In this document: positions 13,617 through 39,297 of the stretch, piece after piece
Numbering within the stretch: position 1 is the stretch's first letter
Layout of the letters: every line of letters starts with the position of its first letter
Assembly: GCA_947566705.1 (NCBI GenBank)
Contig: CANOLA010000023.1
Coordinates: forward strand, 1-39,341
Length of the DNA stretch: 39,341 nt
Direction: 5' to 3'
DNA from: an uncultured Lachnospiraceae bacterium
GTDB lineage: Bacteria; Bacillota; Clostridia; Lachnospirales; Lachnospiraceae
Translations under genes and position numbers: made by a program
Notes under the pieces: generated by a model
The model's database searches: none
Told to the model about the DNA's origin: nothing
Seen by the model: only the letters and a program-made list of their open reading frames with translations

Positions 13617-13632
13617 AATTTTTCCTCCTGTT

Positions 13633-13713: not shown

Positions 13714-13755
13714 CCCCCCAAACATTGGTTCATTCAAATTTTGCCGACATAGCTT

Positions 13756-15052: not shown

Positions 15053-15067
15053 GGTGTTTCCTTTCCC

Positions 15068-15299: not shown

Positions 15300-15483
15300 G
15301 TCATACCCCTGCTGCGCAGGCATATGACTAGTATGGAGCAAAGCACATGATAGTTCGCTTTTTTGAGCAAAGCACATGATAGTTCGCTTCGCGAAGTGCT
15401 TTGCGTAGGTAACACCCTTACAGGGTATTACATGGCGCGAAGTGCTTTGCGTAGGTCATATCCCTGCTTAGCAGGCATATGAC
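15300..15483. repeat. Repeat cluster with a nested hairpin unit
   Basis: Reading on the plus strand: a 29-nt hairpin GTCATACC...ATATGAC (15300-15328); the 5' half of a bulged hairpin, GCAAAGCAC plus ATGATAG plus TTCGC (15339-15358); a complete bulged hairpin (GCAAAGCAC 15367-15375, bulge ATGATAG, TTCGC-TTC-GCGAA, GTGCTTTGC 15396-15404) with its own second hairpin (15409-15431); then the missing 3' half, CGCGAAGTGCTTTGC (15436-15450), and a closing hairpin GTCATATCC...ATATGAC (15455-15483). Removing 15361-15435 restores an uninterrupted unit. The last hairpin touches the TAG stop of the purH-like gene. Confidence 0.9.
15361..15435. repeat. 75-nt hairpin unit inserted in the loop of another copy
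   Basis: This stretch holds one complete bulged hairpin plus second hairpin. It splits the apical loop of an identical bulged hairpin, whose left part ends TTCGCTT at 15360 and whose right part resumes CGCGAAG at 15436. Its length is close to the 74-nt period of the tandem copy at 35.8 kb, so about 74-75 nt appears to be the unit that moves or duplicates. Confidence 0.75.
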
Positions 15484-16661
15484 TAATGATGAAACAGCCG
15501 GATTCCGGTAAAGCTCATCACCATATTGTATTTGTTGCAGGTCTCAATTACATTGTCATCACGCACGGAGCCGCCTGGTTCTGCCACATAGCAGACACCG
15601 CTTCTGTGCGCACGTTCGATATTGTCCCCAAACGGGAAAAATGCATCCGAGCCAAGCGCCACATCAGAATTTAAGGCAAGCCATGCGCGTTTCTCCTCAC
15701 GCGTGAATACATCCGGCTTTGTCTTAAATATATTCTGCCACTGTCCGTCTGCAAGGACATCCATGTAATCCTCCCCTATGTAAAGATCAATGGCGTTGTC
15801 ACGGTCGGCACGCTTGATACCGTCTACAAACGGAAGTTTTAATACCTTCGGTGCCTGGCGCAGCCACCAGTTGTCTGCCTTGGTTCCGGCAAGACGCGTA
15901 CAGTGGATTCTGGACTGCTGTCCTGCACCGATTCCGATTGCCTGTCCGTTTTTCACATAACATACGGAATTGGACTGCGTATATTTTAAGGTAATCATGG
16001 AAATAGCAAGGTCCATCTTTGCCTGCTCTGTCAGTTCTTTGTTTTCAGTTACGATATTGTCAAAAAACTTGTCGTCAATAGTTAACTCATTTCTGCCCTG
16101 CTCAAACGTAATGCCAAATACATCCTTGCTCTCAACAGGAGCCGGAACATAATCCGCATCCATCTCTATAATGCAGTAATTTCCCTTCTTTTTCTGCTTT
16201 AAAATTTCCAGTGCTTCATCCGTATATCCCGGTGCGATAACACCGTCAGACACTTCACGCTTAATTACCTGTGCCGTGGATACATCACAGATATCTGAAA
16301 GGGAAATAAAATCTCCGAATGAAGACATCCTGTCAGCCCCCCGTGCACGGATATAGGCATTTGCCAGCGGGGTAAACTCAATATCCATATCATCCACCCA
16401 GTAGATTTTTTTCTCCACATCTGAAAGCGGAAGTCCCACTGCCGCACCTGCAGGCGACACATGCTTAAAGGAAGCCGCTGCTGCCAGTCCGGTTGCTTTT
16501 TTTAGCTCACTGACAAGCTGCCAGCCGTTAAATGCATCCAGAAAGTTAATATATCCTGCCCTGCCGCTTAACACCTTAATTGGCAGTTCCCCGTCTTTCA
16601 TATAAATTCTGGATGGCTTCTGGTTTGGGTTACAGCCGTATTTCAGTTCGTATTCCTGCAT
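15483..16661 (-). CDS. purH: Stand-alone AICAR formyltransferase (PurH C-terminal domain type)
   Basis: A 392-aa enzyme that transfers a formyl group from 10-formyl-tetrahydrofolate to AICAR, the penultimate step of IMP synthesis. It corresponds to the transformylase part of PurH and lacks the N-terminal MGS-like IMP cyclohydrolase domain of the usual two-domain enzyme. The catalytic Lys-His pair is visible in AASFKHVSPAGAAVG (near residues 66-67), and the C-terminus has the family blocks NSVCYVKNGQAIGIGAGQQS, DAFFPFGDNIERA and FTGIRLFHH. The missing cyclohydrolase step is supplied by the gene directly upstream (16681-17394), 19 bases away. No purine riboswitch or PurR-like box was seen. Confidence 0.95.
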   Translation of the reverse strand: MQEYELKYGCNPNQKPSRIYMKDGELPIKVLSGRAGYINFLDAFNGWQLVSELKKATGLAAAASFKHVSPAGAAVGLPLSDVEKKIYWVDDMDIEFTPLANAYIRARGADRMSSFGDFISLSDICDVSTAQVIKREVSDGVIAPGYTDEALEILKQKKKGNYCIIEMDADYVPAPVESKDVFGITFEQGRNELTIDDKFFDNIVTENKELTEQAKMDLAISMITLKYTQSNSVCYVKNGQAIGIGAGQQSRIHCTRLAGTKADNWWLRQAPKVLKLPFVDGIKRADRDNAIDLYIGEDYMDVLADGQWQNIFKTKPDVFTREEKRAWLALNSDVALGSDAFFPFGDNIERAHRSGVCYVAEPGGSVRDDNVIETCNKYNMVMSFTGIRLFHH

Positions 16662-16680
16662 AATCTGATACCTCTTTCTC

Positions 16681-17394
16681 TTATTTGTTTTTATTTACAA
16701 TCCTGCTTTCATATTCTCCGGTTTCAATATCAATGAACCGCACAAAAAGGGAAACCTTGTTTTCCTCATTTAAATTTTCCCATACCAGACTGGTAAAAGC
16801 ATCAATATCCCCCTTAATGCTGACTGGCACCGGCTCGCCTTCAAAACTTGGAAGCGGATTTCCGTCTCCCATGTACGTATGGATAAACCTTCCCTCTCCT
16901 GCCTGCGGATTGGAATACGCAAATGTATAGCGGTTGCATGAATCAGGATTTCCATTGTTACTCTTTAAAATCGACATTGCAAAATTATAGCCGCTGTTTT
17001 CTATATGCATGATTCCTGAAATACGAGGTGTATAGTTAGGTGCATCCGGCTCAAATTCCCGTGTCCGAAGCGACTGTTCAAACGTCTGCTGCTTATCCAT
17101 CAGGTCATAAATAGTATCTGTCTGGTCCCCGTTTGTCACAATTGTTTTGTTCCCAAACACACGCACCGGTGCGTATATGATCAGGCTCGGATCCTCCAGT
17201 TTTGATTCATCAAATGCCTGTGTACGGATTCCCTCACCATCTTCCACAAAAATACGGTTTCTGCTGTTTGCACTTCTTCCCATAATAAAATATGCGGTAA
17301 CCGCTTTCTTTCCATCCTCAGAACGTCCGATCACAATCCCGCGTCCCGGATAAGTTGTTGCACTTAATTCTTTTTCCAGTGCCTTTTTTTCCAT
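16681..17394 (-). CDS. IMP cyclohydrolase, PurO-like
   Basis: A 237-aa protein of the IMP_cyclohydrolase family first known from archaea (PurO), which closes the ring of FAICAR to give IMP, the last step of the pathway. Recognisable segments are TYPGRGIVIGRSEDGK near the N-terminus, the ITGR-like FIMGRSANSRNR, PRISGIMHI and the GGEGRFIHTY-like GEGRFIHTYMGDG. It pairs with the adjacent stand-alone AICAR formyltransferase, which supports the call. The start at 17394 follows AAAGGAGG by eight bases; a longer in-frame ATG at 17424 lies within a sequence shared with the hydG leader and is not favoured. Confidence 0.87.
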   Translation of the reverse strand: MEKKALEKELSATTYPGRGIVIGRSEDGKKAVTAYFIMGRSANSRNRIFVEDGEGIRTQAFDESKLEDPSLIIYAPVRVFGNKTIVTNGDQTDTIYDLMDKQQTFEQSLRTREFEPDAPNYTPRISGIMHIENSGYNFAMSILKSNNGNPDSCNRYTFAYSNPQAGEGRFIHTYMGDGNPLPSFEGEPVPVSIKGDIDAFTSLVWENLNEENKVSLFVRFIDIETGEYESRIVNKNK

Positions 17395-17406
17395 ATTATT
17401 ATCCTC

Positions 17407-17433
17407 CTTTGAACACCAGCCCATGCAAAATTT
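17407..17433. repeat. 27-base leader repeat shared with hydG
   Basis: Bases 17407-17433 match 13633-13659 at 24 of 27 positions, and both lie directly upstream of, or overlapping, the ribosome site of a minus-strand gene (IMP cyclohydrolase here, hydG there). At the hydG copy the sequence is the first half of a bulged hairpin; here the second half is missing, so this looks like a broken copy. Confidence 0.7.
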
Positions 17434-17445
17434 ACATATAGAAAA

Positions 17446-19389
17446 TTACAGTCTCTGCTTTTTATGGATTTTTTTCTGTTCATACATCCGCTCGTCTGCC
17501 AGACTGATTAATGTCTCTACGTTAGTTTCTTTATTCCAGTCCGCCAGACAATAACCCAGACTTGCCGAAATCTCATAGGGCTTTTCACCTGAATTTGTCT
17601 GTTTTAATTCCCGCTCAATTTCTGCAAGCTTTTCTTTTACCTGGCCGTCCTTATAGTTTCCAACTCCGATAATCAGAAATTCGTCCCCGCCGTTTCTGAC
17701 CGCCACTTCATTTTTCTGCAAACAGCGCTGCATAATTTTTGCAATGGTCGCGAGTCCGAAATCACCCTCATTATGTCCGAAATTATCATTTATATACTTA
17801 AGTCCGTCCATATCCGCCATCACAACCAGAATCCGGTAAATCCCGTACTGTTTTTTTCTGCCGGATAAAAACTGGTACATCCCCCTGCGGTTATACAGAC
17901 CTGTTGCCGTGTCGCGAATGGATAGATTTAACAGCTGGTCCCGGATTCGTGTCATTGCCAGTGAATTATTGACATTCCGAATCCAGTTCCGGTAGACATA
18001 ATCCGGTTTGTGCTTCTGTTTTAAACTGCACTGCATAACTGCATAACCTAACAGTTCATCATCGAAATGTACCGGTGTAAAATAAAAGGTTTTCGCTTCC
18101 TCTGTCTCATTAAAATATGGAAACATCTCCTCCCATGCAAACTTTGCACCGGAGCGGACATTATCCTCCTCCCAGGAGTCTTCTGTGTATGGTTCACCAT
18201 GTACATGCAGCACCGTCTGCATGATCCGCGGAAGGGCTGCCTTTGCCTCTGACCTGATTTCCAGCCAGTCATCGCGCAGGCACAGGTAAAACTCTTCAAA
18301 AGGTCGAATCAGAGTTGCGAATTTATGTATCAGCTTAAGACACTCTTCATAGGAACCTGTATTAATCACCTGCTCATTCATATAACTGTCCAGAAGCTTG
18401 CTGATATCAAAAGGCTGCTCCCAGTTTTCTTCTATATGCAGCTGGTTCTGCTGTACATTAAACATGGAACGCTTCAGCTTATGCTTCATATAATGCACAT
18501 CTGAAAAACAGCCGCAGCTTTCTGCAATAATAAGACCTGTATCCGGAAAATTTCCAGTGTCCAGCAGCGGTTTTTCCGGTTCAATGGCAGCGCGGATCCG
18601 GTTGACAGCTTCTGCAGCCGCTTCACAGATTCTGGGCTCATAGGTTGCTATGGAAACCTCATTAATGGCTCCCTCCTGGGTAACATCATAACCGGTCACA
18701 ATCACCTGCTGCGGTACGTTTATTCCATGCTCCTTCAGCTGGTTGACAAGACCGAGCGCCATGTGGTCGCTGCCGCAAATGACCGCATCCGGAATGTCCA
18801 GTTTTCCTTCATAAATATCATCCGCAAGCCGTTCGCCGGAACCATACCAGAAATCCCCGTAAAATACTGGATACTCCTCGATATTCATCCCATGGTCTTT
18901 CAGATAATCCAGGAAGCCCTCCAGCCGCTCTCCGGCCACACGGTGTCCTTTGATTCCTGTCAGAAAATAAACTTTTTTACACTGGTGTTTCTCAAAAATA
19001 TGCGCCGAAATATCATAAAATGCCTTACGGTCATCTGTAAATACCGTCTCATAATTTCCAAACTCCAGATCCAGCGATACTACTTTTTTGGTGCATTCCC
19101 TTTCAAACCGTTCCAGCAGCTGTGGAAAAATATCCGCTGTTCCATTATCACTTAATGTTATGGAAGTTAAAATGACACCGTCCACCTTCTCAAAATTGAG
19201 AAGGTCATATATTTTTTTCTCAGCAGCAAGATAACTCTTGTCATAATGGTTAATATATACCAGAGTGGAAAATACAATAACATGATAACCATATTTTGCG
19301 CACTGTGCAGTCACGCCATCAATGACACGCTGCTGGTATATATCTTCAAGATTTGCTGTAACAATGGCAATTATCTTCCTCTCCTGCAT
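17446..19389 (-). CDS. LacI-type sugar-binding domain fused to a GGDEF diguanylate cyclase
   Basis: A 647-aa cytosolic protein. Residues about 5-290 resemble the periplasmic-binding-protein-like sensor of LacI/GalR regulators (IIAIVTANLEDIYQQRVIDG, DGVILTS, AVICGSDHMALGLVNQLKEHG, ending LIIAESCGC), but no DNA-binding helix-turn-helix precedes it. A middle region (about 300-490) of GAF-like character follows. The C-terminus is a GGDEF domain with an intact GGDEF (567-571) and the metal and substrate segment DMDGLKYINDNFGHNEGD, so it should make cyclic di-GMP. The RxxD inhibitory site is absent: the matching residues are QKNE. No EAL domain, signal peptide or membrane helix is seen. It is 51 bases upstream of the purine genes. 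The ligand is probably a sugar or similar small molecule, which is inference. Confidence 0.9.
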   Translation of the reverse strand: MQERKIIAIVTANLEDIYQQRVIDGVTAQCAKYGYHVIVFSTLVYINHYDKSYLAAEKKIYDLLNFEKVDGVILTSITLSDNGTADIFPQLLERFERECTKKVVSLDLEFGNYETVFTDDRKAFYDISAHIFEKHQCKKVYFLTGIKGHRVAGERLEGFLDYLKDHGMNIEEYPVFYGDFWYGSGERLADDIYEGKLDIPDAVICGSDHMALGLVNQLKEHGINVPQQVIVTGYDVTQEGAINEVSIATYEPRICEAAAEAVNRIRAAIEPEKPLLDTGNFPDTGLIIAESCGCFSDVHYMKHKLKRSMFNVQQNQLHIEENWEQPFDISKLLDSYMNEQVINTGSYEECLKLIHKFATLIRPFEEFYLCLRDDWLEIRSEAKAALPRIMQTVLHVHGEPYTEDSWEEDNVRSGAKFAWEEMFPYFNETEEAKTFYFTPVHFDDELLGYAVMQCSLKQKHKPDYVYRNWIRNVNNSLAMTRIRDQLLNLSIRDTATGLYNRRGMYQFLSGRKKQYGIYRILVVMADMDGLKYINDNFGHNEGDFGLATIAKIMQRCLQKNEVAVRNGGDEFLIIGVGNYKDGQVKEKLAEIERELKQTNSGEKPYEISASLGYCLADWNKETNVETLISLADERMYEQKKIHKKQRL

Positions 19390-19404
19390 ATTATCACCAC
19401 CCGG

Positions 19405-21087
19405 CTACCGGCCTGCTTCCTCAGCCAGTCTTCTTTCTTCAATCACTTCCGGACTTTCCGGATAAGGGAATTTCTGTGCAAGAATCTCTTCCAGATTCTC
19501 CCTGTCATGAAACGCTTTATTCCGGATTGCCTGGTTTTCTTCCTCTGCCTTTGACTCGATTTCATACAGCTGCGCATTTACTTCCAGCAGCCTCTTTTCC
19601 AGAGCCTCAATTCCCTGTGTAATTTCTTTTTTCTTTGCAACATCCAGCATTCCAAGCGCGGATAACTGTATCTTCTTTTCCTCAATCTCAGCCCAGATAC
19701 TGTCTTTTTCTTCATTTAAAGGCTGAACCTTCGGCTGCTTTTCCTGGTGAACCCTGTCGTGCTCTTTCTTTTCATCAATGTCAATCTTGCGGAACGTCTC
19801 TATCCTTGCATCGTCTCTCTGCTTTTTGACTGCTTCAACCTCCGCTCTCCACTTCACCATCTCTGCCTCTAATCTGGCTTTTCTTTCTGCTTCCCTCTTT
19901 TCTCTTTCTTCACGCTCTTTCTTTTCACGTTCCACCCGCAGGCGTTCATCAAAGTTAGCTTTTACTTCTTTACTGAAAATCCGGTTCGTTACATCCAAAA
20001 GAACCTTTGATTCCTCCCTGATTTCTTCCCCGTCCAGCGTAACAGCCGTACCATGTTCCTCAAGCAGCATCTCCTGCACTTTCATGTACAGGTAAAACAG
20101 AACGTCGTCATCCTGGTTTAAACTGCTAACCTTTTCAAAATAATCTGCCATTTCCAGAAACAGCGCATCCTTCTTTTCTTCATACATCCGGACATAAGAG
20201 GAGAACCTCTCTTTTACTGCTTCCTCCGAAAGTCTTCCTGATTTTCTCTCATACGGAATCCGCGCCTTTGCCTCAAGTGTACACTGGACATTCATCAGAT
20301 CAGCGATTTCCTCGGACCGTTTACGGATTTCACCAAGCCATGTGTCCACATCCTCCTTTGTCAGGATTCGGGCTGCATACTGGTCAGCGGAAAGTGGGAC
20401 AAACGGAATGATTTCCTCATCCGGAACAAATCCTGAAAAAATCTGTTCCATCAGTTTTAACATGTCCTCCCTGCTCCCGACGATTTTGTCAGTCACCACA
20501 TGAAACATCTGGTAAACTGTCCCGTTATAGAATGCAACATAGTAATGTCTGGCTAGATCCGCATCCTCGGACAGCCCGTAACAGCAGCCGCCATATGCGT
20601 GTTCCATGAGAAGCGGGTGATATGCAGAATGACCGATTACCGGTTTTAATGCACGTTTTAAAACTGTCCAGTAAATCACCTCACAGCTTGTACTGTATAT
20701 TTCTGGTATATGATAATCAAAAGAAAGCTCGGCCGGAATTTCCTCTTCCGGATAAATCATAATGGAATAGGAAACGGCTTCCCCCTCCTTCGGTCTCAGA
20801 TATGCAACAAATTCACTTTCTGTTTCTCTTTCCAGTGAAAAATCATCTGGAATTTTCAGACTGTACTGTAAACCTTTAAAACACTTACCGGTATCATATG
20901 TAATATTTATATCTGCAACATTTTTTACGTTGCCGGATTCCTCTTCTCCTTCCTCTGCAGCTGTCGTATATGTCTCTTCCACAACTTCTTCATTTAATAC
21001 CCCGTTGATTGCATGCATGGCAAGTGCAATCCCTTTTCTTGCCTCATCATTAAAATCATATAATAATCTTTCATCTACACCATTCAT
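19405..21087 (-). CDS. Large acidic protein with C-terminal coiled coil, function unknown
   Basis: I do not recognise this 560-aa protein. It has no signal peptide or membrane helix. Residues about 60-220 look like a compact alpha/beta domain (YSLKIPDDFSLERETESEF, YSIMIYPEEEIP, YYVAFYNGTVYQMFHVV), with a faint resemblance to DcrB-like lipoprotein domains that I would not rely on. Residues 374-435 are a highly charged run of Glu, Arg and Lys typical of a long single helix or coiled coil; 455-535 form a second coiled coil containing ALGMLDVAKKKEI, a motif that recurs in clostridial coiled-coil proteins. The ATG has TTAGGAGAACGTT upstream. It sits 15 bases before the GGDEF gene and 19 bases after the UPF0210 gene, suggesting cotranscription. 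Confidence 0.8.
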   Translation of the reverse strand: MNGVDERLLYDFNDEARKGIALAMHAINGVLNEEVVEETYTTAAEEGEEESGNVKNVADINITYDTGKCFKGLQYSLKIPDDFSLERETESEFVAYLRPKEGEAVSYSIMIYPEEEIPAELSFDYHIPEIYSTSCEVIYWTVLKRALKPVIGHSAYHPLLMEHAYGGCCYGLSEDADLARHYYVAFYNGTVYQMFHVVTDKIVGSREDMLKLMEQIFSGFVPDEEIIPFVPLSADQYAARILTKEDVDTWLGEIRKRSEEIADLMNVQCTLEAKARIPYERKSGRLSEEAVKERFSSYVRMYEEKKDALFLEMADYFEKVSSLNQDDDVLFYLYMKVQEMLLEEHGTAVTLDGEEIREESKVLLDVTNRIFSKEVKANFDERLRVEREKKEREEREKREAERKARLEAEMVKWRAEVEAVKKQRDDARIETFRKIDIDEKKEHDRVHQEKQPKVQPLNEEKDSIWAEIEEKKIQLSALGMLDVAKKKEITQGIEALEKRLLEVNAQLYEIESKAEEENQAIRNKAFHDRENLEEILAQKFPYPESPEVIEERRLAEEAGR

Positions 21088-21106
21088 AACGTTCTCCTAA
21101 TTTGTG

Positions 21107-22471
21107 CTAATTTTTAAATGAATGAACCGGCGCAGGAATCCGCCCTTTACGGTTCACAAATGCATCACAGGAAAATGGATTCACCTGCATGACAGGCGCA
21201 TAACCAAGTAATCCCCCAAACTCTGCCTTTTCCCCGACACCTTTGCCTGCCACCGGAATCAGACGTACAGCTGTTGTTTTCTGGTTAATCATCCCAATTG
21301 CCATTTCATCTGCAATAATTCCGGCAATGGTCGTATCCTTTGTATCTCCCGGTATCGCAATCATATCAAGTCCCACGGAACATACGCAGGTCATTGCCTC
21401 CAGCTTCTCAAGTGTCAGTGCACCGGCTTCTGCTGCATGAATCATTCCCTGGTCTTCACTGACCGGAATAAATGCACCGCTTAATCCTCCTACATAGGAA
21501 GATGCCATAATTCCCCCTTTCTTTACCTGGTCATTTAAAAGCGCAAGTGCCGCTGTAGTCCCCGGCGCCCCTGCCTTTTCCAGTCCGATTTCACATAATA
21601 TATCAGCAACGCTGTCCCCGACTGCCGGGGTAGGCGCCAGCGAAAGGTCAATGATCCCAAACGGGATTCCCAGTTTTTTTGATGCTTCCTTTGCAACCAG
21701 CTGCCCAACGCGTGTTACTTTAAATGCTGTTTTTTTAATCGTTTCACAGAGTACCTCAAAACTTTCCCCACGCACTTTTTCCAGTGCTGTTTTTACCACT
21801 CCCGGTCCGCTGACTCCGACATTTATCACCGCATCCGCCTCCGTCACGCCATGAAAAGCACCTGCCATAAACGGATTATCATCCGGCGCATTGCAGAATA
21901 CGACAAGCTTTGCACAGCCGATGGAATCCTTTTCTTTTGTTGCTTCTGCAGTCTTTTTTACGATTTCCCCCATCAGGCGCACAGCGTCCATATTGATTCC
22001 GGTTTTTGTGGAGCCGACATTCACAGAGCTGCATACAAAATCAGTCTCTGCCAGCGCCTGTGGAATGGAACGGATTAAGTTTTCATCCGCAGACGTCATT
22101 CCCTTTGAAACAAGGGCGGAATATCCTCCGATAAAATTCACACCGGTCTGCCTCGCTGCCCTGTCAAGTGTCTTTGCAATTTCCACAAAATCCTCCGGAC
22201 ACCTGCAGGCAGACGCACCGGCAATTGCCACGGGTGTAACTGAAATGCGCTTGTTGACAATCGGGATACAGTAGTTGTGTTCAATACTGTTTCCGGTCTC
22301 CACCAGTTTTTCTGCCATTTTAGTGATTTTGTCATAAATTTTCCGGTTCAGACGGTCCAAATCTGAATCAGTACAGTCCAGAAGACTGATACCAAGAGTG
22401 ATTGTCCGGACATCCAGGTTTTCCTTTTCAATCATCTCATTTGTTTCCGTCACTTCTCCAATATTAATCAT
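21107..22471 (-). CDS. UPF0210/PFL family protein
   Basis: A 454-aa protein of the UPF0210 (DUF711) family, whose structure is related to the glycyl-radical enzyme fold but which lacks a known reaction. The family N-terminus [14 protein letters not shown] and the block [17 protein letters not shown] are clear, as are [12 protein letters not shown] and [12 protein letters not shown]. It is paired with the ACT protein immediately upstream, the standard arrangement of this family, so the ACT protein probably regulates it. The start at 22471 fits the family. An in-frame ATG at 22483, four codons upstream, begins inside a leader motif shared with the DUF1002 gene and could be used instead. No normal ribosome site sits next to either start. 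Confidence 0.93.
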
Positions 22472-22473
22472 GT

Positions 22474-22592
22474 TTTGTACCATGCCGCAGGCGTGGTGCC
22501 ATTTGTGATATGTCGTATTCCGTCAGGAATATGACCCCGCTTTTTAGCGGCACAAATAAAGATTGAAAAATCACCTGCAAACTTTTTCCTTT
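22474..22592 (-). promoter_or_regulatory. Structured leader of the UPF0210 gene, shared motif with the DUF1002 gene
   Basis: The motif ATCACAAATGGC (minus strand, ending near 22509), followed by CCTGCGGCATGGTACAAA (to 22474), occurs again directly upstream of the DUF1002 gene at 34.55 kb. The purine-rich ribosome-site candidate AAAGGAAAAAG (about 22581-22592) is some 100 bases from the start. TGCAGG (22574-22579) next to it can pair with CCTGCG (22486-22491) next to the ATG, which would bring the two together. Two further hairpins lie within: GTCGTATTCC/GGAATATGAC (22512-22535), the same sequence type as the hairpin at 39.26 kb, and CCGCT/AGCGG (22537-22550). Confidence 0.5.
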
Positions 22593-22620
22593 CTTTCACC
22601 ATTATTATTTTTCAATCTTT
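22558..22620. repeat. 14-bp perfect inverted repeat between the ACT and UPF0210 genes
   Basis: AAAGATTGAAAAAT (22558-22571) and ATTTTTCAATCTTT (22607-22620) are exact reverse complements separated by 35 bases. The loop contains the only purine-rich ribosome-site candidate for the downstream gene. It could be a transcript end, a processing site or a protein-binding operator; no T-run follows on the minus strand beyond ATTTG. Confidence 0.7.
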
Positions 22621-22626
22621 AGTTCC

Positions 22627-22911: not shown

Positions 22912-22923
22912 TTTTTATCTCCT

Positions 22924-23727: not shown

Positions 23728-23729
23728 AA

Positions 23730-29392: not shown

Positions 29393-29427
29393 TCTCTGTC
29401 TGCTCCATTTACTTCTATAGAAATGCC

Positions 29428-31658: not shown

Positions 31659-33514
31659 CAGCTATTCCTCTGCCTTTTTTTATTTTTTTTAGAGTTCTTT
31701 CCCTCTTTGACTACTTTTTCTTTTACAACTTTGTCTTCCGCCTGTTTCGTGCGCGTTATATCATATTTCCCGGCGTATTCCTCGAAACATTCCATGTACT
31801 GGTCATTCTTCATCTGACGGACACTCTTTAAGTATTCATGCGTATCAAACTCCGCCGCCTCAAGCTCAAGCATTGCCACTGCAACATTGGAACAATGCGC
31901 GGCAATACGTTCATAATTTGTCAGAAGGTCATTAAAGGCAAATCCCTGTTTTAATTCACATTTTCCTTCACGCAGACGACTGACATGACGGTTTTTCAGT
32001 TCATTACAGAGCATACCGACCAGCTCACGGAGCGGCTCAATCCGGGCAGCCAAATGCAGGTTGTCCTCAGAAAATGCCTCCACGGTCAGATCCACGATTT
32101 CTTTTACTGCCGCGCTTAACACCTCCACCTCGCTCTGTGCATCCTCCGAAAAAGATGTTTTCCTCTCACTCAGCTCATTTGCCACCTCGGAAATATTTAC
32201 CGCATGGTCGCTCAGACGCTCAAAATCACTGATGGTATGTAAAAATTTGGAAACCTGTTTGGTCTGGGGCAACGACATTTCTGTTCCCGTCAGCTGCATC
32301 AGATAGGTACCGAGCTTGTCCTCGTATTTGTCAATCAGGTTTTCTTTTTCCTGTACCTTCTGGTATTTATCGTGTGAAAAGTCGGAAAGCAGGGATATGG
32401 AACGGTATATGTTTTTCCGCGCCTTTTTTGCCATGCCGTTCATCGCCGTATGGCACTGTGCGATGGCAAGTGCCGGATACACAAGAAAACGCTCCTCCAA
32501 CAAATCAAAATCCGCCAAATCTTCCAGTTCTTCCGGATCATCCTTAACCAGCCTGAACACCAGCTTCTCAATCAGAGGGATAAACGGAATCAGAAGCAGA
32601 ATTGTGGCAAGACGGAACACGGAATTCATCAGGGCAATCGTTACCGGCCGCATCGTCATTCCCATAAAATCAAAATTCACAACAGCATTGACACTGTAAA
32701 ACGCAATTGACCAGAATACCATTCCAAACAAATCATTTATCAAATAAATCAGTGCTGTGCGCTTTCCGTTTCTGTTTGTGCCGATGGACGACAGAAGAAC
32801 CGGACATGCCGCACCGACACCAATACCCATTGTAATTGGCAGGGCCGCGGCAAAGCTGATGCTTCCGGTCACAGACAGCGCCTGTAAAATACCGACTGAC
32901 GCGGACGCACTCTGCAGTATCGCTGTAAAGATAATACCGACAATAATACCCGCAAACGGATTCGTAAACATGGTAAGCATGTTTACAAAGTGCTCATTCT
33001 CCTTAAGCGGTGCAACAGCGCCGCTCATCATCTGCATCCCGTTCATCAGGATGGCAAATCCCAGCATAATATCGCCGATATTCTTATACACCATTTTCTT
33101 GAGGAATGTCTTAAAAATAATGCCGACAATTGCAACAACTGCTGAAATTGTTGCAGTGGACAGCAGCTGGGCAACGCCGCTGGAACCGTCGACATAAGAC
33201 AGGCAGAGAATCCAGCCTGTAATACTTGTTCCGATATTCGCACCCATAATAATGCCGATTGCCTGCGCAACCTGCATCATACCGGAATTTACAAATCCCA
33301 CGACCATCACTGTGGTAGCGGAGGAAGACTGGATGATTGCAGTAACCACTGTTCCAAGCAGCAGTCCCTTTAACGGAGTATTGGTAAGCTTGTACAGCAC
33401 AAGCTCAAGCTTGTTTCCTGCCACCCGTTTCAGTCCATCCCCCATCAGGGACATGCCGAAGAGAAAAAGCGCCACACCGGATAACAGTGAAAGGATAATC
33501 GTAATACCGTTCAT
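31658..33514 (-). CDS. Na/Pi cotransporter family protein with PhoU-like domain
   Basis: A 618-aa membrane protein. Residues about 5-320 carry the two inverted Na/Pi-cotransporter repeats, each with its core motif: TAIIQSSSATTVMVVGF and TAILQSASASVGILQAL. Residues about 350-560 are a PhoU-like helical bundle (LIDKYEDKLGTYLMQL, ISDFERLSDHAVNISEVANE). The C-terminus is very basic. The family imports phosphate with sodium, and the PhoU part probably regulates it, though some members may not transport phosphate. It is the first gene after the promoter at 33564-33593, with AAAGGA eight bases before the ATG, and is the head of the polA operon. Confidence 0.95.
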   Translation of the reverse strand: MNGITIILSLLSGVALFLFGMSLMGDGLKRVAGNKLELVLYKLTNTPLKGLLLGTVVTAIIQSSSATTVMVVGFVNSGMMQVAQAIGIIMGANIGTSITGWILCLSYVDGSSGVAQLLSTATISAVVAIVGIIFKTFLKKMVYKNIGDIMLGFAILMNGMQMMSGAVAPLKENEHFVNMLTMFTNPFAGIIVGIIFTAILQSASASVGILQALSVTGSISFAAALPITMGIGVGAACPVLLSSIGTNRNGKRTALIYLINDLFGMVFWSIAFYSVNAVVNFDFMGMTMRPVTIALMNSVFRLATILLLIPFIPLIEKLVFRLVKDDPEELEDLADFDLLEERFLVYPALAIAQCHTAMNGMAKKARKNIYRSISLLSDFSHDKYQKVQEKENLIDKYEDKLGTYLMQLTGTEMSLPQTKQVSKFLHTISDFERLSDHAVNISEVANELSERKTSFSEDAQSEVEVLSAAVKEIVDLTVEAFSEDNLHLAARIEPLRELVGMLCNELKNRHVSRLREGKCELKQGFAFNDLLTNYERIAAHCSNVAVAMLELEAAEFDTHEYLKSVRQMKNDQYMECFEEYAGKYDITRTKQAEDKVVKEKVVKEGKNSKKNKKRQRNS

Positions 33515-33563
33515 ATCATTTTTCCTTTAGTTCGTTGGTTAGTTGTTTCATATATACCACTCC

Positions 33564-33593
33564 ATTATATGACACTTTACCCTCTTTTTACAA
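33564..33593 (-). promoter_or_regulatory. Sigma-A type promoter of the transporter-polA operon
   Basis: On the minus strand TTGTAA (33588-33593) is 18 bases from a perfect TATAAT (33564-33569). Transcription would start near 33557, giving a leader of about 40 bases. It sits in the 92-base gap after the DUF1002 gene. No terminator for the DUF1002 gene was found in the gap. Confidence 0.75.
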
Positions 33594-33606
33594 TCCCTTT
33601 TTCATT

Positions 33607-34545
33607 TTAATTAAAGAGTGACTTAAACCAGTCCACAATTTTCTGGAAAAAGTTCTTTACTTTTGTCCCGAAACCTTCGCTGTTTAATGCATCCTGCAGC
33701 TTATCCGCCCATGCGGACGCCTGATTTTTTATGCTGTCCCAGTCAAGGTCCAGGGTTTTCAGCTTTTCAACCAGGTCTATAATCTTCTGTCTGTCCTCTG
33801 CGGAAATTTCCAGGTCATATTTTTTTGCATATTCATCAATCGCATCTTCAATCTGCTCCTTCGTATCCAGCTTTCCTTCTGCCATTCTGCCCTTAATGTC
33901 TGCAATCATGGCTTCGATGTCCTCAGAATCCCCGTCAATGCTCTGCTCCAGCTCTCCCGTCGTGACAAGCTCGTCCATCGCAGCATCCACAATATCCTCA
34001 TCCAGCAGTTCACCGGTAATCTGTTCATAAGCTTCTAGGGTTCCCACCAGTGCCGCTGTGCCGGAAATGGCAAACGGTCCTGCCACGATGACATTTGCAT
34101 CCTGTACGCCTGCGGTTGCAAGGGCATTTTTGTACATTCCCGCGGTACAGTAATTAATATTGTAGGTAGACACCTTAAGCCCGTCCCCCTCGCCGGCAAG
34201 CGATACCACAACCGAAGAAAGCGCCCGTGTACCGATTTTTTCCTTTGGAACGTAAGCGTCCAGATATTTGTGTTCCTCTGCGTTGCTGACATACACCACG
34301 TCATACTGGTCGAAATCAGCCGCCTCAATCCCCATATACTCCAGGACCTTATGCTGTTCGTCTGCCGTCAGGTCTGCCCCAAGCGCCAGATAGGGCTTGT
34401 CTGACTCTGTTATTATGACATTGTCACCATTGCCGCTGTTTTCTGTCCCTTCTTCGACAGATGCATAAGCCATAACCGGAATGTTGCATACTGTTACGGC
34501 CGCCATTACAATTCCCGCTGCCTTTTTTATTATTTTTTTTATCAT
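33607..34545 (-). CDS. Secreted DUF1002 (YpuA-like) protein
   Basis: A 312-aa exported protein. It has a clear signal peptide: a Lys-rich start, the hydrophobic AAGIVMAAVTVCNIPVMAYA and a cleavage site after AYA. The mature part matches the DUF1002 family of Firmicutes (LGADLTADEQHKVLEYMGI, SSVVVSLAGEGDGLKVSTYN, VIVAGPFAISGTAALVG). The C-terminal third is helical and ends in an amphipathic FFQKIVDWFKSLFN that could touch the membrane. The function is unknown. An in-frame ATG at 34557 would add MVQI; it lies in the leader motif shared with the UPF0210 gene, and neither start has a close ribosome site. Confidence 0.9.
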   Translation of the reverse strand: MIKKIIKKAAGIVMAAVTVCNIPVMAYASVEEGTENSGNGDNVIITESDKPYLALGADLTADEQHKVLEYMGIEAADFDQYDVVYVSNAEEHKYLDAYVPKEKIGTRALSSVVVSLAGEGDGLKVSTYNINYCTAGMYKNALATAGVQDANVIVAGPFAISGTAALVGTLEAYEQITGELLDEDIVDAAMDELVTTGELEQSIDGDSEDIEAMIADIKGRMAEGKLDTKEQIEDAIDEYAKKYDLEISAEDRQKIIDLVEKLKTLDLDWDSIKNQASAWADKLQDALNSEGFGTKVKNFFQKIVDWFKSLFN

Positions 34546-34603
34546 AATTTGTACCATGCCGCAGGCTCTGCCATTTGTGATACCTGCAGCCTTTTCCTTC
34601 CTT
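34546..34603 (-). promoter_or_regulatory. Structured leader of the DUF1002 gene, shared with the UPF0210 gene
   Basis: On the minus strand the ribosome-site candidate GGAAGGAAAAGG (about 34590-34601) is followed by CTGCAGG (34583-34589), a 17-base loop and CCTGCGG (34559-34565), which pair over 7 bp with one G-U. One base later comes ATG GTA CAA (34557). Folding would place the ribosome site next to this ATG. The same elements (AAGGAAAA, GCAGG, ATCACAAATGGC, CCTGCGGCATGGTACAAA) occur upstream of the UPF0210 gene, where extra hairpins fill the middle. Confidence 0.55.
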
Positions 34604-34611
34604 TTAATATT

Positions 34612-35634
34612 TTACTTCCACAAATATTTCATTTCAAATTTATTTTCCTGTACATGAACCTCGGCGCATGCACCGCTGACGACCGGCATCATCGGTGACA
34701 AATGCCCGATATCCAGATCCATGATAATAGGAACACCAAAGTCCGCCAGCAAATCTGTCACGGCACGGTACTGGTCAATCCCAAATGCCTCTTCCCCAAA
34801 ACATAACGGACGTCCGATCAGAAAGCCTTTCACATGGGAAAACCAGCCTGCGTGTATCATCTGCCAGACGGCACGTCTGATGGACATGACATTTAAATCA
34901 CAGGACTCTAAAAACCATATAAAACCATCTTCTTTGTAATGCTCTGTGAATTCTTTCACATGGTCAAATTCCGTCCCGGTCAGGTTTACCAGGCAGTCCA
35001 TACAGCCGCCGACCAGCCGTCCCTTTATAATAACCGGCTCGTCAGGAAACTTCCGGATACGCACCGGCTCCGTCACCTGGTACGGTGCAAGCGGTGTTTC
35101 CTCGCTCTTACTGCTGTCCCGCTCCCAGAGGTCATAATTGTGAACACTGTCCCTTTGTCCGCACAGAAGCGCAAACGCATCCTCCACTGCCGGATGCCAC
35201 GGCTCCATACCGAACGCCGAAGCGCAGGGACCGTAAATGGCTGCAGTATCACAGACTGTTGTAGACAGAAAGGTAAAATTGGTATTGTCCGAAAACCCCA
35301 TATACCACTTGGGCTTTGCATTCCTGATACGCTCAAAGTCAATATATGGCAGCACCTCGCACATCAGCTCGCCGCCGCCGCAGGAAATGATTACATCATT
35401 ATTAGTGCCACAATAGCTCTCATTTAATTCCATGCCGCACAGTTTCGGGTCATTGCTGATGCCAATGCCTTTTTCCACAAGACAGTTTTCTCCCAGCTGT
35501 GTCTTATAACCCATTTCATGAAACCTGTCCAGTGCATGCATAAACGCTGTATAATACGGCTCTGTCGCACATCCGAAGGACGGCGCCACAAACCCAATTG
35601 TTCCGTTTTCCTGTAAAAACTGCGGATAACGCAT
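34612..35634 (-). CDS. S66 family LD-carboxypeptidase
   Basis: A 340-aa serine peptidase of the LdcA/MccF family, which removes the terminal D-alanine from tetrapeptides in peptidoglycan recycling or cleaves microcin C7-like peptides. The catalytic Ser lies in MGFSDNTNF, the Glu in IWFLESCDLN and the His in DIGHLSPMMP, so the triad is complete. The N-terminus GTIGFVAPSFG is typical. The long family form with NESYCGTNNDVIISCGGGE suggests the MccF-like branch. The start at 35634 is chosen because GGAG is eight bases upstream; the ATG at 35640 is only two bases from it. A TATAAT lies about 40 bases upstream. Confidence 0.93.
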   Translation of the reverse strand: MRYPQFLQENGTIGFVAPSFGCATEPYYTAFMHALDRFHEMGYKTQLGENCLVEKGIGISNDPKLCGMELNESYCGTNNDVIISCGGGELMCEVLPYIDFERIRNAKPKWYMGFSDNTNFTFLSTTVCDTAAIYGPCASAFGMEPWHPAVEDAFALLCGQRDSVHNYDLWERDSSKSEETPLAPYQVTEPVRIRKFPDEPVIIKGRLVGGCMDCLVNLTGTEFDHVKEFTEHYKEDGFIWFLESCDLNVMSIRRAVWQMIHAGWFSHVKGFLIGRPLCFGEEAFGIDQYRAVTDLLADFGVPIIMDLDIGHLSPMMPVVSGACAEVHVQENKFEMKYLWK

Positions 35635-35673
35635 AATCATCTCTCCTTTTCTTATCAGACTGTACTGTTACCA

Positions 35674-35705
35674 ATTATACTATCGAAATCTTCCTGCATG
35701 TGCAA
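35674..35705 (-). promoter_or_regulatory. Possible promoter of the LD-carboxypeptidase gene
   Basis: A perfect TATAAT on the minus strand (35674-35679) lies about 40 bases before the ATG. The best -35 candidate, TTGCAC (35700-35705), is 20 bases away, longer than usual, so the call rests mainly on the -10 and on the terminator just upstream. Confidence 0.45.
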
Positions 35706-35755
35706 CCTTAACTTCCTTAAATTTTTATTACGAAACAGGACCAGCCCCTGCACAC

Positions 35756-35782
35756 AAAAAAAGACGAAGATGAAACATCTCC
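35756..35782 (-). terminator. Intrinsic terminator after the 108-aa gene and its repeat
   Basis: On the minus strand GGAGATG and CATCTTC pair over 7 bp (one G-U) around a TTT loop (35766-35782), followed by GTC and seven T (35756-35762). It ends the transcript that passes through the tandem hairpin repeat and separates it from the LD-carboxypeptidase promoter. Confidence 0.7.
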
Positions 35783-35789
35783 GCCAACT

Positions 35790-35929
35790 GTAACACCCCG
35801 CCAGGGGTGTTACCTGCGTAAAGCGCTTCGCGAAGCGAACTTCCATGCGCTTTGCTCCTTTTGCAACACCCCGCCAAGGGGTGTTACCTATGCAAAACAC
35901 TTCGCGAAGCGAACTTCCATGCGCTTTGC
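35790..35929. repeat. Tandem pair of 74-nt double-hairpin repeats
   Basis: Two units read on the minus strand. Each has an outer stem (GCAAAGCGC with GTGTTTTGC at 35921-35929/35892-35900; GCAAAGCGC with GCGCTTTAC at 35847-35855/35818-35826), the 7-nt bulge ATGGAAG, inner stem TTCGC/GCGAA with loop TTC, and a second hairpin: GTAACACCCC/GGGGTGTTGC (35863-35887) and GTAACACCCC/GGGGTGTTAC (35790-35813). The period is 74 bases. The first unit starts at the stop codon of the 108-aa gene. One outer stem keeps pairing through two G-U pairs. Confidence 0.9.
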
Positions 35930-35933
35930 TCCT

Positions 35934-36260
35934 TTATCCCGGAACATACTGGTACCTGATCTTCTGACTGGAATAAAACAAATAGGATTTTACATTTGTC
36001 CAGAAAGAAAGCTCCTTATTGTACTTAAAACTTGTGTCATATGCGATTCCCTGCCGGTTGCACCAGATATAGATGTCATTCAGCCCCATCTGTTTTACCG
36101 ACCTGATGTTATTCATAAAAGTCTCAATTTTTGAAAGCTCCCTTTCGCTGTTAATATACAAATGAAAAATTGTATTCGGACATTCGATCAGGATACGTCC
36201 CTCATGTTTTTCTCTCAAAACTGTTCCACCCTCTCCCGTTTTGCTCCCGCCGCCTGCCAT
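35934..36260 (-). CDS. Hypothetical protein, 108 aa
   Basis: I do not recognise this protein. From about residue 20 it reads like a real, ordered small domain (RILIECPNTIFHLYIN, then helical FMNNIRSVKQMGLNDIYIWC, then NKELSFWTNVKSYLF). The N-terminal 14 residues from ATG 36260 are Gly rich (MAGGGSKTGEGG) and may not be translated: a GGTGG lies seven bases before a TTG codon at 36218, which would give a 94-aa product. No signal peptide or membrane segment. The hairpin repeat begins at its stop codon. It is divergent from the phosphofructokinase gene. Confidence 0.6.
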   Translation of the reverse strand: MAGGGSKTGEGGTVLREKHEGRILIECPNTIFHLYINSERELSKIETFMNNIRSVKQMGLNDIYIWCNRQGIAYDTSFKYNKELSFWTNVKSYLFYSSQKIRYQYVPG

Positions 36261-36465
36261 ATGATGCAGGTTATGTGTCTATTTTTACTTATTTTACTAT
36301 AATTTAACAGAAAACACCAGCGATTTTTGACATTTTTTTATAAATTTATGCTCCATATCTGTATAAGTATATCTGTTTTCCACAGATTTCATGTGTACCT
36401 CTTGAACTTCTTTCCCAAAACATCTAAAATGAGGATAAATACTGCATAATATTAAGGAGACTGTA
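36261..36465. other. Divergent A/T-rich intergenic region
   Basis: A 205-base region between the 108-aa gene (minus) and the phosphofructokinase (plus). The plus-strand promoter is at 36402-36430. For the minus strand there are several A/T-rich -10 candidates near 36290-36300 but no good -35. Small palindromes (ATCTG...CAGAT near 36371-36387) may be operators; I see no riboswitch. Confidence 0.5.
36402..36430 (+). promoter_or_regulatory. Sigma-A type promoter of the phosphofructokinase gene
   Basis: TTGAAC (36402-36407), a 17-base spacer and TAAAAT (36425-36430). Transcription would start near 36437. The ribosome site AAGGAG (36454-36459) is six bases before the ATG at 36466. Confidence 0.75.
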
Positions 36466-37695
36466 ATGAATAAATTAAACTGTATGGTTGCCCAGTCCGG
36501 CGGCCCGACCTGTGCAATTAATGCCAGTCTTGCCGGTGTGGTTTCCGGCATAAAAAATTCCTCTGTATATGAAAAATGTTATGGTGCCGTCAATGGCATT
36601 TTAGGAATCCTGAACGAACAGTATACAGACCTGACAGATACCATTACCGATGATGCTGCCCTTTCCTGTCTTATGACAACCCCTGCCATGTACCTTGGTT
36701 CCTGCCGGCACAGGCTTGCAGACTATAAGGATGATGATTCTTCCTATGTATTTATTTTTAACCAGTTTGCAAAACTGGATATCGGGGCATTTTTTTATAT
36801 CGGCGGCAATGATTCCATGGATACCGTGGATAAGCTGTCAGATTATGCCAGAAAAATCAACAGCGATATCCGCATTATCGGAATTCCAAAAACCATTGAC
36901 AATGACCTGTACATGACCGACCACACTCCGGGGTTCGGCTCTGCGGCAAAATATATCGCCACTTCCCTGCTTGAAATCTCGCATGATACATTTATTTATG
37001 CGGTAAAAAGCGTTACCATTGTAGAAATTATGGGAAGGGATGCCGGATGGCTGACTGCAGCGTCCGCACTTGCAAGAAACAAATACAATGCCGCCCCGCA
37101 TTTCATTTACCTGCCGGAGACTGTATTTAGCAAGGAACAGTTTCTGCACGATGTAAAAGAAAAACTAAAGACAGTTGATAATGTTATTGTTGCTGTTTCA
37201 GAGGGGATCCGTGACGAAAACCAGGAATACATCACGGCATCTTCCGCAGCGGTGGACCAGTTTGGACACAGACAGCTTTCCGGAGCCGGAAAAGCACTGG
37301 AAATTCTTGTCAAACAGGAACTCGGTGTCAAGGTCCGTTCCGTGGAAATCAATGTCCTGCAGCGGTGTGCAGCGCACATGCTGTCAAAAACGGACATTGA
37401 CGAATCATTTTCACTCGGTAAGCACGCCGTTTCCCTTGCAGAGGAAGGCGTCACCGCTTCCATGGTAACGCTGGAACGCGTTTCAGACAGCCCTTACACG
37501 GTTACTTACAGCCATGCAGATATCCGCAGTATTGCCAACCAGGCAAAAATGATTCCGCCGGAATGGATTCATAAAGACGGAAATGACGTGATGGCAGAAC
37601 TTACGGATTATTTAAGACCATTAATCCAGGGAGAAGTAACCATTACCTATAAGGACGGTATTCCGGTATACATGCCGTTTATTCACAGGGATTAA
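36466..37695 (+). CDS. 6-phosphofructokinase, pyrophosphate-dependent type
   Basis: A 409-aa phosphofructokinase-family enzyme that makes fructose 1,6-bisphosphate in glycolysis. The N-terminus VAQSGGPTCAINASL is the phosphate loop. Residues 113-117 are GGNDS and 141-147 are PKTIDND. In this family an Asp in the fourth position of GGDD and a Lys in PKTIDND go with pyrophosphate rather than ATP as phosphate donor; both are present, although the third-position Asp is Asn here. EIMGRDAGWL is the substrate block. The donor assignment is therefore probable but not certain. The gene is monocistronic or cotranscribed with the L,D-transpeptidase 19 bases downstream. Confidence 0.88.
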   Translation: MNKLNCMVAQSGGPTCAINASLAGVVSGIKNSSVYEKCYGAVNGILGILNEQYTDLTDTITDDAALSCLMTTPAMYLGSCRHRLADYKDDDSSYVFIFNQFAKLDIGAFFYIGGNDSMDTVDKLSDYARKINSDIRIIGIPKTIDNDLYMTDHTPGFGSAAKYIATSLLEISHDTFIYAVKSVTIVEIMGRDAGWLTAASALARNKYNAAPHFIYLPETVFSKEQFLHDVKEKLKTVDNVIVAVSEGIRDENQEYITASSAAVDQFGHRQLSGAGKALEILVKQELGVKVRSVEINVLQRCAAHMLSKTDIDESFSLGKHAVSLAEEGVTASMVTLERVSDSPYTVTYSHADIRSIANQAKMIPPEWIHKDGNDVMAELTDYLRPLIQGEVTITYKDGIPVYMPFIHRD

Positions 37696-37714
37696 ACCAC
37701 AGAAAGGAGCTTTT

Positions 37715-39184
37715 ATGGCTGCTAAAAATACAAAACACAAAAAAAGACGTGCAAAAAACCCGCTTCCTGCAGTTTTTGCCGGTATGGGAACTGCGCTTCT
37801 TGCCGTTTACATTGGTTTTGGCATTTACTATAATAAGCATTTTTTTCCAAAAACCACCATTGGCAGTACGCTCTGCGGCAACCAGACTGCCGCATGGCTT
37901 GAAGCTTCCAATGTTGCAGCTGCAAAAAAATATTCCTTATCAGTCAGGGACCGCATGGATAATGTTTATACTATTGAAGGTCCTGATATTTCCTATGAAT
38001 ATAATACAAGAGGGGAAGAAGAAGCTATTTTAAAAAAGCAGAACGGATTTACCTGGCCCGTTGCCGTTTTTCAGACGCATACCCATGAACTGAACCAGTC
38101 CTTCACTTATGACGCGGATGCGCTTGGACAGATTATTGACACACTGCCTTTGTTTGATGAGGACTACATTACTCCTCCAAAAGATGCCTATCTTGATATC
38201 AGGGAGGATGACTACGAGGTGGTAAAAGAAGAGCCTGGCAATACACCGGTCCGTGATGAAATTGCTGCAGAAATTACTGCCGCCATTGAAGACCAGAAAA
38301 ATGCATACACACTGTCTGATAACTGCTACGAAAAGCCTGCGGTCTACGCCTCTGACAAAATGATAGCAGACACAGCTGCCCAGATTGACCAGTATACCTC
38401 CGCAACCATACAGTATGATATTGACGGAGCAGAGGAATATCTGGACAAAGGCGATATTCTTTCCATGCTGGACATAAATAAAGAAGGTACGGTAACCATA
38501 AACGATGACAAAGTAACGGCTTTTGTCCAGAAGCTTGCCAGTACCTATAATACGTACGGAGACGTCCGCACCTTTGCCACATCCAAAGGAGATGACGTAA
38601 AAATCGGCGGGGGCGACTACGGCTGGGTGATAAATAAAGCAAAGGAAAAAGAACAGATTTTAGAAGACCTGAAAAACGGAACACCCGTGGAACGTGAGCC
38701 GGTTTACGAACAGACTGCCATCAAAAGCGGTCTGGACGATATCGGCGATACCTATATTGAAATTGATTACAGTAACCAGCACCTGTGGTTCTACCGGGAA
38801 GGGGAACTTATAACAGAAACAGACATTGTTTCCGGCAATATCCGCCACAATAATGGTTCTCCGGACGGCGTGTTCAAAATTGCCTACAAGGAACGCGACG
38901 CAACACTGATTGGTGAAAACTACGCCTCTGATGTCAAATATTTTATGCCGTTTGCCTACAATGTCGGCATCCATGATGCAAGCTGGCGCAGCAAATTCGG
39001 GGATGAAATCTATAAGACTTCCGGCTCCCACGGCTGTATCAATGTGCCGGAAAAGATTGCAAAAAAACTGTTTAAGGAAGTCGAGACCGGTACACCGGTT
39101 ATCGCATATTACCGCGAACCGGTGACACTGACTGCTGAGAATGCACGTATTTCCAATGCTTATTCTTATAAGGAGAAAGATTAG
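37715..39184 (+). CDS. L,D-transpeptidase (YkuD) with PG-binding domains
   Basis: A 489-aa cell-wall enzyme that makes 3-3 cross-links in peptidoglycan. After a basic cytosolic start there is one membrane helix (about residues 17-40), so the rest is outside the cell. Two regions of PG_binding_4 type follow (about 60-170 and 225-335). The C-terminal YkuD domain (about 350-470) has the catalytic motif in which SHGC ends at Cys 441, with the upstream His in VGIHDASW. The start ATG follows AAAGGAG by five bases. The gene ends with a hairpin repeat and a terminator. Similar proteins are common in Lachnospiraceae with a phosphofructokinase not usually nearby, so the pairing may be accidental. Confidence 0.94.
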   Translation: MAAKNTKHKKRRAKNPLPAVFAGMGTALLAVYIGFGIYYNKHFFPKTTIGSTLCGNQTAAWLEASNVAAAKKYSLSVRDRMDNVYTIEGPDISYEYNTRGEEEAILKKQNGFTWPVAVFQTHTHELNQSFTYDADALGQIIDTLPLFDEDYITPPKDAYLDIREDDYEVVKEEPGNTPVRDEIAAEITAAIEDQKNAYTLSDNCYEKPAVYASDKMIADTAAQIDQYTSATIQYDIDGAEEYLDKGDILSMLDINKEGTVTINDDKVTAFVQKLASTYNTYGDVRTFATSKGDDVKIGGGDYGWVINKAKEKEQILEDLKNGTPVEREPVYEQTAIKSGLDDIGDTYIEIDYSNQHLWFYREGELITETDIVSGNIRHNNGSPDGVFKIAYKERDATLIGENYASDVKYFMPFAYNVGIHDASWRSKFGDEIYKTSGSHGCINVPEKIAKKLFKEVETGTPVIAYYREPVTLTAENARISNAYSYKEKD

Positions 39185-39189
39185 ATACT

Positions 39190-39277
39190 GTCGTACCCCT
39201 ATGGAAAAGGAGCAATCGCATGATAGTTTCGCTTCGCGAAAGCGATTGCGTAGGTCGTATCCCTTACGGAATACGAC
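39190..39277. repeat. Double-hairpin repeat with a matched insertion in both arms
   Basis: Bulged hairpin: outer stem GCAATCGC/GCGATTGC (39212-39219, 39242-39249), bulge ATGATAG (39220-39226), inner stem TTTCGC/GCGAAA with loop TTC (39227-39241). The second hairpin is GTCGTATCCC/GGAATACGAC (39254-39277). Compared with the copy at 15.37 kb the inner stem has one extra base pair (T in one arm, A in the other) and the outer stem has changed on both sides. A partial second-hairpin arm, GTCGTACCCC (39190-39199), precedes the unit. It starts within six bases of the L,D-transpeptidase stop. Confidence 0.9.
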
Positions 39278-39297
39278 AATACTGACTATTATACAAA

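Follow-up and report, generated by a model that had tools for sequence, protein, structure and literature searches.

The window analysed here is the whole 39,341-nt stretch of contig CANOLA010000023.1 (GenBank assembly GCA_947566705.1), from an uncultured Lachnospiraceae bacterium. Its main subject is a short interspersed repeat, hereafter family A, which is probably a miniature mobile DNA element and which occupies three sites in the window: 15334-15484, 35788-35934 (minus strand) and 39207-39278. The unit measures approximately 75 nt and has the layout A-W-GGAG-hairpin1-GYAG-hairpin2-A. Hairpin 1 consists of an outer stem (mostly 8-9 bp, and 7-9 bp in the window), a bulge of 7-8 nt on the 5′ side, an inner stem of 5-6 bp and a loop that is mostly TTC; 5′ of each hairpin stands a 4-nt tag, which is GGAG for hairpin 1 and GYAG for hairpin 2. 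The copies in the window are as follows.

15334-15360, plus strand: left half of a split family A copy, running from the GGAG tag through the 5′ arm of the outer stem, the ATGATAG bulge and the 5′ arm of the inner stem to the TT of the loop
15361-15435, plus strand: inserted family A copy of 75 nt (hairpin 1, GTAGG, hairpin 2), inside the hairpin-1 loop of the split copy
15367-15404, plus strand: hairpin 1 of the inserted copy (outer stem 9 bp, bulge ATGATAG, inner stem 5 bp, loop TTC)
15436-15484, plus strand: right half of the split copy, with the remainder of the loop, the 3′ arms of both stems, GTAGG and hairpin 2 (15455-15483)
35788-35860, minus strand: family A copy, second of a tandem pair
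35862-35934, minus strand: family A copy, first of the tandem pair, with a period of 74 nt
39207-39278, plus strand: family A copy (hairpin 1 at 39212-39249, GTAG at 39250-39253, hairpin 2 at 39254-39277)

At the first site, rejoining the two halves (27 nt on the left, 49 nt on the right) restores a full unit with both hairpins. The 75 nt that separate them make up another unit, whose hairpin 2 is different and which sits within the loop of the first unit's hairpin 1. Hence the stretches at 15335 and 15436, which a preliminary description of this DNA had listed as separate partial copies, are the halves of one copy split by the copy at 15367. The same description had reported bulged hairpins at 13642, 15367, 35790 (two) and 39212, and these were recovered (the pair at 35788-35934, on the minus strand) with an outer stem of 7-9 bp, a 7-nt bulge on the 5′ side, an inner stem of 5-6 bp and the loop TTC; as single-stranded DNA, the five stretches fold with z of -3.5 to -7.3 (n = 5). 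The segment of 4-7 nt that it had called a linker does exist, but is the conserved tag GTAGG or GCAGG rather than a plain linker. A bulged hairpin by itself is not rare, a generic scan having counted 13 over the window and between 0 and 7 in each of ten local shuffles; the case depends on the repeat family.

Further copies are indeed present in the genome. A covariance model covering hairpin 1 and its flanks (built on 11 copies and 14 pairs, with rough E-values) gave 84 matches at E ≤ 1, of which 70 at E ≤ 0.001, in the host assembly (3.41 Mb, 160 contigs, 84% complete); a few of the 84 belong to another repeat, family C, or are remnants. Once the six weakest were dropped, the remaining 78 matches formed 62 clusters, of which two lie within predicted genes, one (L078) within the RNase P RNA gene, and the others outside or at the edge of predicted genes, placement being based on a simple open reading frame (ORF) caller and on Rfam searches at 10 loci only. 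The view of a structured repeat family residing mostly outside genes is thereby upheld. Relative to the neighbouring genes, 23 clusters have the same orientation as both, 17 are opposite to both and 13 are mixed, while seven lack one neighbour and two are inside a gene. All 15 multi-copy clusters counted are head-to-tail, with none of mixed orientation; in genome G266, inverted copies stand approximately 1 kb apart.

Stem sequences differ among copies with pairing kept, as first described, and covariation was gauged by pair counts with shuffle and slide controls. Over a set of 108 matches (A5, 106 distinct), 94.3% of 1425 cells are paired, versus 76.5% in shuffles and 24-58% in six slid controls. 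Changes on both sides of a pair account for 236 cells (52.3 in shuffles) and occur at 13 of the 14 pairs (9.7 in shuffles); these, together with 22 cells of one-sided change that keep the pairing, compare with 81 unpaired cells, of which 23 fall at one pair, the second. Only 25 of the approximately 1344 paired cells are wobble pairs, a scarcity that would favour DNA-level structure, or copying from arm to arm, over slow compensation at the RNA level. The flank scripts worked on 105 hits, three of the 108 A5 rows having been dropped. For the 41 of these chosen by the letters GGAG, CATK and GYAGG, the variable arm core is 99.5% Watson–Crick paired, versus 58.2% when arms are swapped between loci (maximum 67.7%, 500 trials); these hits hold 21 distinct left arms and were taken from the model search, so that the control is not fully independent.

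GGAG precedes hairpin 1 in 66 of 73 copies, the tag of hairpin 2 reads GTAGG in 38 of 73 and GCAGG in 23 of 73, and a hairpin 2 follows the tag in 56 of 78 copies, whereas 2 of 78 shuffled stretches have one. The counts of ends, flank repeats, T runs and ORFs leave out hits below 30 bits. Both ends are sharp: on the left, information 5′ of GGAG amounts to 0.93 bits at -1 (a position belonging to the model), 1.33 at -2 (a position outside it) and 0.17 at -3, in the 54 of 73 copies without a recognisable hairpin 2 before them, and on the right it falls from 1.43 bits at +1 to 0.38 at +2 past hairpin 2 (38 copies). The two termini, AWGGAG and CA, bear no inverted-repeat relation to one another. 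No convincing target-site duplication is apparent; direct flank repeats of at least 4 nt (4-5 nt) were found in 5 of 34 copies against 1.9 expected, and three of these five (L014, L022, L071) come after another hairpin 2, in tandem arrays.

Presence of the family is patchy among related species. Full-model matches were obtained in 7 of 36 same-genus genomes (G000, G001, G005, G010, G018, G025, G027), three more (G004, G021, G022) gave partial matches only, with other flanks, and none was found in 24 genomes from other families of the order. In a same-family sample of 299 genomes, at least five, the host included, have a match at E ≤ 1e-5, which is a lower bound, with 19 candidates scored per genome. 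The model confirmed 15 of the 18 stretches that an exact-pattern scan of named genomes returned, in Roseburia faecis M72 and in several Lachnospiraceae, Lachnoclostridium or Agathobacter metagenome-assembled genomes; the eight genomes reached in this way have 3 to 47 model matches each, two of them (G065 and G071) appearing to be G027 and G010 again. Among viral carriers, the single exact pattern match was not confirmed by model R1, nor were the Bacteroidetes/Bacteroides pattern matches (L162, L165, L170).

Copies also lie inside two conserved protein genes and the RNase P RNA gene. In folC, the element adds approximately 34 residues that are absent from all 13 aligned orthologues; in galT, the net gain is 12 residues in a variable stretch, and none of the 14 aligned relatives has them; and both reading frames remain open across the in-frame copies. 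In the RNase P RNA of the host (L078, 680-1119, minus strand), the P12 loop is filled by a full unit and that of P3 by a lone hairpin 2. P12 was readable in 17 same-genus genomes (8 of 18 loci plus 9 of 10 loci): 11 have short loops, the unit is present in G000 and G010 and, lacking the bulge, in G018, while G005 and G027 have hairpin-2-type hairpins only. In the last of the 17, G020, which is another species, the P12 of rnpB (L310) holds a different long insert with hairpins of its own. Among the eight P3 loops shown, hairpin 2 occurs in G000 only. Lone hairpin-2 units were also seen by eye in copies of a second repeat, family B, described below, either in the loop (L131, L133, L138) or in the linker (L133, L142, L144).

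We propose, with a probability of approximately 0.72, that family A represents a miniature, non-autonomous type of mobile DNA made of two tandem hairpins, each with a 5′ tag. This reading, drawn from sequence comparison, is favoured because copies are dispersed, their ends are sharp, there is no convincing duplication, presence is patchy, one copy is nested in another, and copies occur in protein genes and in a loop of the RNase P RNA. The unit would be recognised as folded single-stranded DNA, through its tags, its bulge and its Watson–Crick stems, by an enzyme acting in trans, and would be pasted into an exposed single strand such as a hairpin loop. Harmful copies would then be purged, so that the survivors lie in intergenic DNA, in loops and in protein segments that tolerate them, and tandem arrays would grow through slippage.

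Several points weigh against this proposal. All comparisons are between species, none between strains with a filled and an empty site, and no transposition event was observed. No mobilising enzyme was found, and Y1 transposases do not track the element in the genus genomes or in the pattern-found carriers. The galT copy replaces part of the variable stretch and is not a clean insertion. The flank repeats in 5 of 34 copies leave room for a weak duplication, which is not fully excluded. The covariation set A5 was fitted to the model, and its counts are inflated by training copies, related and tandem copies and a few family C rows. Lastly, a T run follows 2 of the 44 copies with a readable end, and some copies may have RNA roles.

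The spread of repetitive extragenic palindromic (REP) sequences is usually tied to REP-associated tyrosine transposases (RAYTs). Family A could be a true REP family, moved by a Y1-family RAYT that is missing from the 84%-complete assembly or was lost after the spread, but we consider this unlikely. In its favour, the GYAG tag of hairpin 2 matches the REP form, at least as set out in the available part of the published survey (PMC3733652), the GGAG tag of hairpin 1 is similar, and one carrier (G064) has a Y1 frame of 258 aa, with no family A copy at that locus. However, a search with PF01797 (Y1) over the host genome, 40 genus genomes and the eight pattern-found carriers gave no match in 5 of the 7 same-genus carriers or in 6 of the 8 pattern-found ones (two of the eight appearing to be repeats). 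The Y1 frames of the other two genus carriers, G000 and G027, measure 80-186 aa and are mostly truncated or interrupted, bar one full-length IS200-type frame of 149 aa in G000. Conversely, 13 of the 33 other genus genomes searched have Y1 matches, and the five with frames of 263-306 aa (G003, G012, G013, G028, G031) carry no family A copy. The model found no copy at 15 Y1 loci (best E 0.92), and a scan of eight Y1 loci for bulged or GTAG-type hairpins returned nothing resembling family A; many genomes are incomplete, which weakens the argument from absence. Since the Y1 distribution does not follow the element, a RAYT was set aside as its mover. An autonomous parent element with family A ends was also rejected, as no protein family is common to more than three of the 106 flanking proteins (the three being MatE); with 25 of 148 families listed, a single transposase among these neighbours could be hidden.

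Spread without a dedicated enzyme, through template switching of replication at hairpins, with copying from arm to arm keeping the stems matched, also strikes us as rather improbable. It would agree with the several insertions in hairpin loops, with the existence of lone hairpin-2 units, with stems that vary among loci yet pair with few wobbles, and with the lack of a convincing target duplication. The two-hairpin unit nevertheless has sharp ends that are identical at dispersed loci, which suggests a recognised unit. As for a family of structured RNAs that selection maintains locus by locus, whether as processing sites, attenuators or protein-binding leaders, it is very doubtful: the stem covariation and the tRNA genes beside copies (6 of 57 host loci scanned) are in keeping with it, whereas the copies face both ways relative to genes, T runs are nearly absent, distribution is patchy, copies lie in folC, galT and the RNase P RNA, and the 106 neighbouring proteins share no common type.

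Two further assignments were discarded. An intrinsic terminator was rejected on the T-run count, and family A copies overlap with none of the three terminator-like sites in 13400-17600. In 29 of 57 copies (CATG copies; 14 of the 57, cut by the pattern at CACA, were unread), a GGAG lies 7-8 nt upstream of the bulge ATG, in the manner of a ribosome binding site ahead of a start codon, but a small ORF was rejected as a gene, the position of the in-frame stop being variable and no frame conserved.

Among known systems, family A was compared with GTAG-tagged REPs, bacterial interspersed mosaic elements (BIMEs) and REP doublets forming hairpins (REPINs), which, in the available parts of the sources, are short tagged stem-loops in tens of copies, with compensatory stem changes, tandem clusters and some copies in genes (PMC3733652, PMC3116915, PMC2817692). 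GTAG-tagged REPs are described there as short stem-loops with GTAG, or GYAG in some families, at one end (PMC3733652). Hairpin 2 of family A, with a GYAG tag next to its stem, fits this form, and complementary stem variation and tens of dispersed copies are found in both. The preliminary description had not recognised the repeat as a known RNA or REP family; this stands as regards RNA, with no Rfam match over the gathering score in the whole window (and only the host RNase P RNA, twice, at 10 element loci), whereas REPs do offer a likeness. Family A differs from them in several respects: hairpin 1 has a GGAG tag and a bulge of 7-8 nt; association with RAYT genes was not detected in the genomes searched; the hosts are Lachnospiraceae, whereas a 2013 survey of tagged palindromic repeats lists, in the part available, Proteobacteria, Cyanobacteria, Chloroflexi and the PVC group, and none in Firmicutes (PMC3733652). 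Furthermore, inverted dimers (head-to-head or tail-to-tail) predominate among GTAG-tagged REPs, versus 0 of 15 mixed clusters here, and a REPIN is two inverted REPs around a spacer, which the head-to-tail order of family A is not.

Rickettsia palindromic elements (RPEs) are comparable in that a palindrome is found in frame in unrelated protein genes and elsewhere; these CGTC-tagged REPs are without a dedicated transposase, as far as the accessible text of both sources goes (PMC3733652, PMC10969869). Family A differs by its tags (GGAG/GYAG, and no CGTC), by its phylum and by having only 2 of 62 clusters inside coding genes. Mitochondrial double-hairpin elements, other repetitive hairpin elements and GC clusters are single or double hairpin repeats that lie dispersed in intergenic DNA, can also be accommodated by variable regions of structural RNAs and occasionally by proteins, and are proposed to be mobile, according to the portion available (PMC2800124); they belong to organelle genomes and are likened to family A by anatomy and RNA-loop sites. 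Bacterial miniature inverted-repeat transposable elements are likewise small, non-autonomous and dispersed, but family A is without convincing target-site duplication and without terminal inverted repeats spanning the unit. Among the titles and abstract openings returned by searches of the open-licence PMC literature, no paper named family A or a tagged palindrome of Lachnospiraceae. Because hairpin 2 and its tag match the published GTAG-tagged REP form, REP-like is the nearest kind, and we therefore file family A as REP-like mobile palindromes, outside the RAYT-REP and RPE families. More tentatively, Clostridia might possess in it a mobile DNA class of its own, in which a tandem double hairpin of 75 nt is spread by a non-Y1 activity, with hairpin loops of DNA (its own, those of leader elements, those of RNA genes) as landing sites and a hairpin 2 able to move by itself.

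The window also contains the following related features.

13633-13713, minus strand: family B leader, in sense orientation, upstream of a radical SAM/BATS gene (12189-13616)
17407-17436, minus strand: truncated family B leader, at the start of an IMP cyclohydrolase-like gene (16681-17424)
15300-15328, plus strand: hairpin-2-type palindrome GTCATACC...GGCATATGAC, probably a leftover of an upstream tandem unit
22512-22535, minus strand: isolated hairpin-2-type palindrome

The two palindromes were missing from the preliminary list, and the entries at 13642 and 17411, which it had merged with the others into one family, belong to family B, a two-hairpin leader with a conserved sequence of its own. 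The consensus of the latter, established by eye, is CTTTGAACATCCGCT CATGCAAAATTTGCC TTC GGCAAAT GAGCGGACGCTGCAT GTCAAGTTTTCATAGAAAACTTGAC. Its 15-nt core has 11 exact and four one-mismatch matches in the host genome, and 36 matches with up to two mismatches, versus four for a reversed control pattern. At 14 of 18 host loci (L130-L144, L146-L148), a start codon with a Shine-Dalgarno-like site lies 27-32 nt downstream of the core on the sense strand; at the other four, the distance is 111 nt in L148, and the script found no start codon in three. Family B may be a portable 5′ leader or regulatory element. Families A and B have in common the bulge layout CATG(N)AAA, and a shared origin is possible.

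Family C, at L049, L050, L051, L058, L059, L066 and L096 (all in A5), shows a hairpin with a similar CATGNAAA bulge, a CTTCG loop and other flanks, for instance GTAACTATTCAGTACC palindromes in L050 and L066, and is probably a separate repeat. A terminator-like hairpin, TGCTGTACC...GGTACAGCA followed by a T run, was noted at 15076-15098 (minus strand), at the 5′ end of the ORF 14792-15145.

Family A is REP-like and reaches high copy numbers where no Y1 gene is present, which lets one ask what else can move such hairpins. It also shows that, in free-living gut bacteria, an essential ribozyme and some enzymes have incorporated small hairpins, to be compared with those reported in the proteins of Rickettsia.

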